DNA from: Yoonia sp.
Lineage (GTDB): Bacteria > Pseudomonadota > Alphaproteobacteria > Rhodobacterales > Rhodobacteraceae
Direction of reading: 5' to 3'
Length of the DNA stretch: 64,000 nucleotides
Assembly: GCA_029250945.1 (NCBI GenBank)
Contig: JAQXEG010000044.1
Span: 98,087 to 162,086, forward strand
In this document: one piece after another, positions 43,743 to 49,639 of the stretch
How positions within the stretch are numbered: the first letter of the stretch is position 1
How the letters are laid out: every line of letters begins with the position of its first letter
Notes under the pieces: generated by a model
Told to the model about the DNA's origin: nothing
Seen by the model: only the letters and a program-made list of their open reading frames with translations
Database searches by the model: none
Translations under genes and position numbers: made by a program

Positions 43743-44609
43743 ATGGCGGTTTGGAACCTTGGGTCGATCAACATCGACGTCGTCTATTCCGTCCCGCATA
43801 TTCCCGCACTCGGTGAAACGCTGGCTGCGACGGATCGCCAGATGTTTCTGGGCGGGAAGGGGGCCAATATGTCGGTCGCGATCGCGCGGTCAGGTAGCCG
43901 TGTGAACCATATCGGTGCTATTGGCGCCGACGGGATTTGGACGGGTGAACGGCTGTTGGAATACGGTGTTGATACGCAGTTCATCAAAGTCATTGCGCCG
44001 CAAACATCCCAAGCGGTGATCGCTGTGGATGCGAAGGGTGAAAACGCAATTATCCTTGCGCCTGGTGCTAGTGTCGAAATCCCGCAGCATCTGTTGCAAA
44101 ACGCACTGTCAGAGGCATCAACGGGCGATTGGTTCATCACGCAAAATGAAACTAACCTGCAACGCACAGGTGTCACGCTTGCCAAAAAGATGGGTTTGAA
44201 GGTCGGTTATGCCGCTGCCCCGTTCGATGCGGATCGGGTTGCCGCCGTGTTAGAGCATCTTGATTTTCTGATTTTGAACGCGGTCGAGGCACAGCAGCTG
44301 ACCGACGCCACTGGTAAGACGCCAGATGCGCTGGGCGTGGCGGATGTGATTGTGACCTTGGGCGGTGACGGTGCCGATTGGTACGGCGCGGACGGTAAAC
44401 AGCATTTTGATGCGCTGCCTGTGACCCCCGTTGATACAACAGGTGCAGGGGACACGTTCACTGGCTACGTTCTAGGCGGCCTTGATCAAGGGATGCCGAT
44501 GGCACAAGCCATCGCGATGGCGATCAAGGCGGGTGCGTTAATGGTCACCCGCCAAGGCACTGCTGATGTGATCCCCGATCTGGCTGAGGTGCGCGATTTT
44601 AGTGGCTGA
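43743..44609 (+). CDS. PfkB family carbohydrate kinase (ribokinase-like)
   Basis: LGSINIDVVYSVPHIPALGETLAATDRQMFLGGKGANMSVAIARSG; VDTTGAGDTFTGYVLGGLDQG. Confidence 0.92.
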   Translation: MAVWNLGSINIDVVYSVPHIPALGETLAATDRQMFLGGKGANMSVAIARSGSRVNHIGAIGADGIWTGERLLEYGVDTQFIKVIAPQTSQAVIAVDAKGENAIILAPGASVEIPQHLLQNALSEASTGDWFITQNETNLQRTGVTLAKKMGLKVGYAAAPFDADRVAAVLEHLDFLILNAVEAQQLTDATGKTPDALGVADVIVTLGGDGADWYGADGKQHFDALPVTPVDTTGAGDTFTGYVLGGLDQGMPMAQAIAMAIKAGALMVTRQGTADVIPDLAEVRDFSG

Positions 44610-45333
44610 TGAACGGGGCGTTTGGACCCCATAGCGCCTCAACCCGCTGATCACGGCCACACGCATTGCGATAGAACTTGTAGGAATCCGCCGGTGTTTT
44701 TGGACCACGACGGGTCAGCACCATGTTCGGACCTTTGTGGTAATCCTGATGGTAGTCTTCGGCAGGATAGAACGTGGATTCAGCGATGATTGGCGTGACG
44801 ATCTTTTGCTCCAACTCTGTTTGCGCGCGGTTCAGCGCCTCGCGGGCTTGGGTCGCTTCACGGCTGGAACCAGTGAAAACAGCCGTGCGGTAAGCTGCGC
44901 CGCGGTCGCAGCACTGGCCGCCTGCATCCGTAGGGTCGACCGACCGGAAGAATAGGTTCAGTAGTTGCGGATGGCTAATGCGATCGGCGTCATATGTGAT
45001 TTCGACCGCTTCATAGTGGCCTGTGTTTTTTAACGTTTTGTACGTCGGGTTTTCGGTTGTGCCGCCGGTATAGCCTGACACGGCCTCGATCACGCCGGGA
45101 ACGCGTTCGAAAATCACTTTCGACGCACCAGAAACACCCGCCAGCAACAACCATTTTTCGATGTCGCGTGCCTCGGCTGTTTTGCCCTGAAGGATCGCGC
45201 CAAACCTGATGGTAAGCGCAAGAACCGCAGTTTTGATGAATTGGATGGTAAAGGTAATGATCGTATCTCCTGTGGTTGGCACGACATGACCCCGAATGCA
45301 GGCACCGATCAATTCACGGGCTGGTGATATCAC
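44599..45333 (-). pseudogene. msrA: Peptide-methionine (S)-S-oxide reductase MsrA with apparent compensating frameshifts across the active-site motif
   Basis: [38 protein letters not shown]...YHQDYHKGPN...YRNACGRDQRVEALWG is a clear MsrA, but the ORF reads [25 protein letters not shown] where [21 protein letters not shown] is present in the adjacent frame (between poly-T 45153-45157 and poly-A 45110-45113, plus-strand coordinates). Confidence 0.75.
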
Positions 45334-45395
45334 GCGCTCTTTACCACTTGGAACATTTCGGCGCTGGGCCTAGCGTGGTGCAAAAGGGGACCCCA

Positions 45396-46304
45396 ATGAC
45401 CGAACATGTAACCACACACCAAGCACAGGATGATATCCGTAACCAATCCATTCTGATCTATGTGGACGGGAGGATCGTGCCGCGTGATCAGGCCGTGGTC
45501 AGTGTATATGACAGCGGCTTTATGTTGGGTGACGGCGTCTGGGAAGGGATGCGCTTGTATAATGGAAAATGGGCATTCTTAGATGAACACATGGACCGCT
45601 TGTTCGAGGCCGCGAAAGCCATTGATCTTGATATCGGGATGGATCGAAAGGGGGTCATTTCCGCCTTGTTAGAGACACAAAAAGCAAACGGTATGACCGA
45701 GAATGCCCATGCGCGTTTGATGATTACACGCGGGGTTAAGGTGCTGCCGTTCCAGCATCCGTCGCTGTCCCAATCCGGCCCGACATTTGTGATTATTATG
45801 GAGCATTCGCAGCCGAAAATCCCACGACCCATAACCCTTGCCACTGTGCCGCATTTGCGCGGCTTGCCGATGACCCAAGATCCGAAACTGAACAGCCATT
45901 CCAAGCTGAATTGCATCCTTGCCTGTATCGCCGCGCAAAAGGCGGGCGCGGATGAGGCGCTGATGCTGGATATCAATGGGTTCGTGAACACGACCAACGC
46001 CTGTAACTTTTTCATTGTGCGCAAAGGGGCCGTTTGGACCAGCACGGGCGACTATTGCATGAACGGGATCACCCGCCAAAAGGTCATCGACCTATGCCGC
46101 GCCAACGACATTCCGGTGTTTGAACGCAACTTTAGTCTGGTCGATATCTACGGCGCGGATGAGGCGTTTTTGACTGGCACATTCGGGGCGCAAACGCCTG
46201 TTGGTTCCTTGGACGGCCGCGTGATCGGCACGGGCGAGCTGGGGCCGATTACCACCAAGCTGCGCGCACTTTACAAGGACCTGATTGCTAGGGAAGTTGC
46301 CTGA
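45396..46304 (+). CDS. Aminotransferase class IV (branched-chain / D-amino acid aminotransferase-like)
   Basis: IYVDGRIVPRDQAVVSVYDSGFMLGDGVWEGMRLYNGKWAFLDEHMDRL; NSHSKLNCILACIAAQKAGADEALMLD. Confidence 0.93.
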   Translation: MTEHVTTHQAQDDIRNQSILIYVDGRIVPRDQAVVSVYDSGFMLGDGVWEGMRLYNGKWAFLDEHMDRLFEAAKAIDLDIGMDRKGVISALLETQKANGMTENAHARLMITRGVKVLPFQHPSLSQSGPTFVIIMEHSQPKIPRPITLATVPHLRGLPMTQDPKLNSHSKLNCILACIAAQKAGADEALMLDINGFVNTTNACNFFIVRKGAVWTSTGDYCMNGITRQKVIDLCRANDIPVFERNFSLVDIYGADEAFLTGTFGAQTPVGSLDGRVIGTGELGPITTKLRALYKDLIAREVA

Positions 46305-47005
46305 TGCGTATCGCGATGTGGTCTGGTCCGCGGAACCTATCAACTGCGATGATGTATGCGTTTGGAAATCGTGGTGCTGGTTGCACGGCGATCGATGAAC
46401 CGTTCTATGCCGCCTATCTCAAGGCCACTGGTCTGGATCATCCGCTGCGCAACGACATCCTGCGCAGCCAGCCGAACGATAGCGACGCCGTGATTGCGGA
46501 TTTGGCCGACTATGACGGTCTCCAATACGAAAAGCATATGACGCATCACATGCTGCCTGAATTTTCGCGCGATTGGATTGCGGATGTAACCAACGTATTT
46601 CTGATCCGCCACCCCGCCCGCGTTATCGCGAGCTATGAGGCCAAGCGCGAAAACCCGACACTGTCTGACCTTGGATTTGAACAGCAGCTTCATCTGTATG
46701 AGACCTATGGCGGTCGCGTTGTGGACAGCGCGGATATTCGCAAAGACCCCAAAACTGCGACCCAAATCATTTGTGAAGAGATTGGGATCTGCTGGGATCC
46801 GGGCATGTTGGAATGGCCTAAAGGGCCCAAGCCGTTTGACGGCGTTTGGGCGTCCCATTGGTATGGCGCAGTCCACAACAGCACGGGCATTGCGGGCCAA
46901 GAGGGGCCGTTGCCCGAGGTATCAAAAGAGAACGCGTCCTTGCTGGCGCGCGCTTTGGAAATTTATGATGCGATGCGTGAACATCGCTGTTTTTCATTTG
47001 ATTAG
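46304..47005 (+). CDS. Sulfotransferase-fold family protein
   Basis: MWSGPRNLSTAMMYAFGNR...VTNVFLIRHPARVIASYEAK: PAPS-binding-like loops; 1-nt overlap with upstream aminotransferase (TGATG). Confidence 0.78.
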   Translation: MRIAMWSGPRNLSTAMMYAFGNRGAGCTAIDEPFYAAYLKATGLDHPLRNDILRSQPNDSDAVIADLADYDGLQYEKHMTHHMLPEFSRDWIADVTNVFLIRHPARVIASYEAKRENPTLSDLGFEQQLHLYETYGGRVVDSADIRKDPKTATQIICEEIGICWDPGMLEWPKGPKPFDGVWASHWYGAVHNSTGIAGQEGPLPEVSKENASLLARALEIYDAMREHRCFSFD

Positions 47006-48226: not shown

Positions 48227-48361
48227 AAGTGCGGGCCTTTTCGTCATTGGGATTTCAAGGCGAGGTAACGGGTTTTGCCCAGTGACGCAAGGATAGGGCG
48301 TTGACGGGGCAGGGGGCAGGGTGCGACCAAAGGACAACCGTTTAAAAAAGGATATTATCCG

Positions 48362-49563: not shown

Positions 49564-49639
49564 CGTTGTCCCCTTGGCGTGCGGCTTGTCCTGCCTATAT
49601 AGGCGCGGTATGCCAATACCGTACATGTAAGGAAATCCG

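Follow-up and report, generated by a model that had tools for sequence, protein, structure and literature searches.

The msrA locus described here is probably a young pseudogene, formed by ordinary gene decay, of the exported MsrA found in its genus (the signal-peptide form of the protein-repair enzyme methionine sulfoxide reductase A). It lies in a window of 64,000 nucleotides (i.e., the whole stretch of DNA that was analysed) from the 2.53 Mb genome (48 contigs, 95% complete) of a marine-type Rhodobacterales bacterium, the nearest relative of which is genome G027. Set against intact orthologues, the locus carries the disabling lesions by which a pseudogene is recognised: the catalytic segment is out of frame and the start codon is changed. 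The features to which we refer are the following.

43743-44609, plus strand: ribokinase/PfkB-like gene, convergent neighbour of msrA and synteny anchor
44599-45258, minus strand: degraded signal-peptide-type msrA; counting from the ATT that stands in place of the ancestral ATG, it has 219 codons and a stop
45109-45113, minus strand: net +1 indel at GATTTTCGAAC, where the nearest relatives read GA(T/C)TTT-GA(A/G)
45110-45153, minus strand: segment between the indels, whose ancestral frame still encodes the MsrA active site and whose present frame encodes 15 different residues
45125-45136, minus strand: TGTTTCTGGTGC, which codes for the catalytic CFWC but is no longer in frame
45151-45162, minus strand: net -1 indel just before the active site, from DNA alignment with relatives; its exact base cannot be placed
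45256-45258, minus strand: ATT where relatives carry the ATG start, from DNA alignment with the five nearest relatives
45265-45270, minus strand: GGAGAT, a Shine-Dalgarno-like sequence (AGGAG is conserved in relatives)
45390-46304, plus strand: branched-chain aminotransferase-like (ilvE-like) gene, divergent neighbour of msrA and synteny anchor

Orthology and content of the open reading frame

Signal-peptide MsrA is carried by 35 of the 57 genus genomes. The window is collinear with G027 over most of its length, and msrA sits between the ribokinase-like and ilvE-like genes, as it does in the relatives that carry it. The protein tree places it beside G027 with a support of 0.90 (branch 0.338 in the window versus 0.149), and the concatenated neighbouring genes give branches of 0.101 in the window versus 0.083. 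By synteny and tree, msrA is a vertically inherited orthologue of the signal-peptide MsrA found in the genus. Horizontal replacement of msrA is not favoured, as both place the gene beside G027. A plasmid search with the DNA of the gene returned short distant matches only. An ATG start and a signal peptide are expected of this orthologue group; here the ATG is replaced by ATT and the signal-like stretch is still recognisable.

A separate observation concerns the sulfotransferase-domain gene (PF19798) at 46304-47005 in the same window. It shares 52-57% identity with the genes at the equivalent position in the genus (mostly about 68-85% alike among themselves) and 56-63% with homologues in other genera, pointing to a likely in-place replacement by horizontal transfer.

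The msrA ORF scores 123.7 bits against TIGR00401 (cutoff 108.1) and 142.3 bits against Pfam PF01625 (cutoff 23.7), in line with the original prediction that an automatic annotator would call it msrA. The profile match begins at profile position 14, past the active site. It is because the match starts just beyond the missing active site that the ORF still exceeds the msrA cutoff, and with a score above the NCBIfam cutoff, annotation would overlook the lesion. The catalytic Cys of GCFW[C/G] is absent from the encoded frame, and GCFWC is found only in another frame. This agrees with the claim that the frame of the ORF lacks the active site while an adjacent frame reads it between the same borders. 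The match in the alternative frame is not due to chance, as several relative-protein queries and all readable relatives fit that frame here. Likewise, the translation of the ORF and the alignment of relatives bear out a replacement of about 14 residues, including the catalytic Cys, with the downstream frame intact. Other MsrA residues are retained, namely the Glu of GHYE, the Tyr of SGY, and the Asp and Tyr of CDRG..YRT, and most residues of the MsrA fold, together with the signal-peptide cleavage region, are still recognisable. There is no other stop within the 219 codons, and 170 codons downstream are open.

All readable relatives carry an uninterrupted GCFWC (100 loci counted), and the variant active-site segment is shared by none of the ~100 related loci. 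The original prediction had suggested this comparison because a variant shared by close relatives would argue for function; a functional variant common to relatives is rejected, since no relative has it. Nor is there a conserved shift site among the relatives, as the frame is uninterrupted in all readable ones.

Indels and start codon

The two indels, one net -1 and one net +1, lie ~44 nt apart, and the remainder of msrA is in frame. Compared with the five nearest relatives, the window is one base short between GACAT and GGTT and has one base extra in GATTTTCGAAC. The lost base is not exactly placeable because relatives read CAGA.. or CAAA.. where the window reads GAAAAA. The simplest reading of the extra base is a C, since the five nearest relatives read TTT-GA(A/G); an inserted T is a possible alternative, given the TTC-GAA of other relatives. 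The original prediction described both indels as changes in homopolymer runs. Its A4 run at 45110-45113 was placed correctly and its plus-strand T5 run was off by one (45154-45158, not 45153-45157), but the homopolymer description itself is unsupported: the nearest five relatives have TTT-GAA/GAG and CAG/CAA-A.. at these sites, with no A6 run. From these alignments, a homopolymer slip appears to be required for neither indel.

Every difference between the inter-indel segment and that of relative G038 falls at the third position of an ancestral-frame codon, from which we take the indels to be recent. A random pair of indels of opposite sign would fall within 44 nt with a chance of about 6%; the compensation is therefore mildly unusual and does not by itself demand selection, and the frame-restoring second indel may be a coincidence.

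The change from ATG to ATT is a third lesion of msrA, besides the two indels. It had been half seen in the original prediction, which noted that no ordinary start codon follows GGAGAT; indeed, no ATG, GTG or TTG lies directly past the GGAG at 45270. An in-frame GTG is present upstream at 45333. The region upstream of msrA (45260-45390) is conserved enough in relatives to read as an open frame (NVPSGKERV..P.REL), and is probably not coding but a promoter region shared by the divergent genes.

Residue loss, dating and backup genes

Past the shift, msrA is 68% identical to G027, as against 74-94% for its neighbours, a range that excludes the sulfotransferase gene that was probably replaced (54%) and two entries taken from the wrong strand or frame. 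Lineage-specific changes at conserved sites number 10 in the window msrA versus 2 in G027. Among the sites invariant in 29 other genus members, 7 are changed in the window msrA, with 2 of them within the shifted segment; the 5 that lie outside it compare with an average of 0.45, and never more than 3, in the other species. Conserved-residue loss outside the shifted segment thus exceeds that of each of the 29 relatives.

A codon model run on a reduced taxon set gave an omega of 0.141 on the window branch versus 0.107 elsewhere. Equality with the background was not rejected (p = 0.48) and omega = 1 was rejected (p = 1.2e-6). An omega this far below 1 implies that msrA was constrained over most of the branch, and hence that its inactivation must be recent. 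We infer this recent date for the lesions from sequence comparison in which synonymous sites are near saturation. Random point mutations would create a stop 4.5% of the time, so the missing stops are unsurprising in a young pseudogene.

The original prediction had also suggested looking for a second msrA in the genome. An intact one, of cytosolic type and with the motif GCFWG, is found on contig C25. The genome also holds two msrB, one with a signal-like N-terminus, and a search with profile NF003767 for an MsrP homologue, a periplasmic backup, found none in this genome. Across the genus, signal-peptide MsrA and signal-peptide MsrB co-occur (both in 30/57 genomes, neither in 19/57; Fisher p = 1.2e-7, with presence called by E-value, some genomes incomplete, and a p value that ignores shared ancestry). 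The signal-peptide MsrB at L134:791-1252 is intact here, though its co-occurring partner MsrA is broken. In three other species (L257, L258 and L259), the ribokinase and ilvE genes are separated by about 6, 60 and 70 bp and msrA is missing from the gap; absence of the gene is therefore tolerated. An apparent msrA loss in G035 was discarded as evidence, its contig ending inside the ribokinase gene.

Taken as a young pseudogene, the locus would have lost its ATG start to ATT in the terminal lineage, which would also have seen a one-base deletion ahead of the active site and a one-base insertion behind it. The downstream frame is still open, but any product would be without the catalytic cysteine. 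The cell keeps its intact MsrA of cytosolic type as well as both MsrBs, of which one has a signal peptide. That the indels pair up would be coincidental, or could reflect a short period in which the frame still had to be maintained. We infer that the DNA is correct and that no active product is made.

Alternative explanations and known systems

Since two base-calling errors could scramble the active site of a gene that is really intact, we took a census of frame disruptions using relatives' genes as queries, with the assembly surveyed in tiles (840 kb, of which 284 kb held comparable genes). In 41 kb of the window, msrA is the one credible frame disruption, and the compensated-shift detector recovered msrA itself when given suitable queries. 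A compensated match at 48277 precedes the start of a gene and was not counted, and apparent breaks at 49566-49575 and L193:6480 were attributed to ORF extensions, antisense or upstream. There were four breaks in the 284 kb of assembly, compared with one in 294 kb of the control relative G047; one of the four is an antisense artefact and the other three lie within ~7 kb on contig C25. These three mark a cluster of disrupted genes (L175:3598-11161, at about 43600-51160 of C25) in which the frame of a T2SSF homologue (type II secretion F-domain) is broken several times, a transglycosylase gene carries both a frameshift and an in-frame stop, and an ATPase-like gene has an insertion of 2 bp together with an altered P-loop residue. 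The cluster looks like genuine gene decay, not base-calling error. Genome-wide indel errors are thus unsupported by the census.

An assembly or sequencing error at msrA would fit the inter-indel segment being undecayed in its ancestral frame, the lack of stops and the low omega of the branch, but we consider it unlikely. It requires two errors to have arisen independently within 44 nt of each other when no error-like break occurs in the rest of the tested window or in the 284 kb of assembly outside the decaying cluster; it leaves the ATT start and the excess loss of invariant residues unexplained; and relatives have no long homopolymer at either site. Accordingly, of the two explanations that the original prediction put forward, paired homopolymer errors are disfavoured by the clean frame census, the start-codon substitution and the absence of homopolymers at the indels in relatives, whereas recent inactivation is well supported by the start-codon lesion, the excess conserved-residue loss, the second intact msrA and the msrA-free loci.

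A slightly less likely explanation again is that the protein still serves some non-catalytic purpose, such as binding oxidised methionine or another partner, and that selection favoured the frame-restoring indel. The restored frame, the 170 open downstream codons, the other MsrA residues still present and an omega of 0.14 are all consistent with such a role; yet a variant of this kind occurs in no relative, otherwise invariant residues have been lost elsewhere in the protein, the conserved start site is without an ordinary start codon, and constraint before inactivation accounts equally well for the low omega. We regard it as highly improbable that the locus yields an active exported MsrA, possibly under certain conditions, through two ribosomal slips, -1 on GAA-AAA and then +1 on TTT-C, with translation starting at ATT, at the upstream GTG or at an ATG immediately ahead of the active site. 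Frameshifting of the corrective kind is an established class (PMC5009743), the original-frame reading of the segment is perfectly preserved, and TTT-C precedes the rare codon CGA (22 of 6065 codons), the kind of context where +1 slips occur. However, recoding would require two opposite slips 44 nt apart as well as a weak start, it is needed by no relative, and conserved residues elsewhere are being lost.

The preferred reading of msrA as a young pseudogene opens no new biological question and describes a neat, overlooked pseudogene. Compensating indels can hide the loss of a gene, as profile annotation and truncation filters pass the ORF even though its catalytic residue is gone, and the locus adds a case in which exported MsrA is lost while signal-peptide MsrB is kept. 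Synteny, tree and domain score make the ORF an orthologue of the Rhodobacterales signal-peptide form of MsrA (peptide-methionine (S)-S-oxide reductase; PF01625, TIGR00401), from which it differs in lacking GCFWC and its catalytic Cys, in its ATT start, and in five otherwise invariant residues that are changed. It resembles young bacterial pseudogenes with small indels in its start loss, indels and excess loss of conserved residues, as well as in the presence of an intact paralogue in the genome and of species without the gene at the locus. Unlike the usual young pseudogene, its two indels compensate and the ORF stays open, so that frameshift and truncation filters miss it. Corrective ribosomal frameshifting of genes with disrupted frames has been reviewed (PMC5009743), and msrA shares with such genes an apparent frame disruption and a preserved original-frame sequence; unlike them, it would need two opposite slips, and its shift site is not conserved in relatives.
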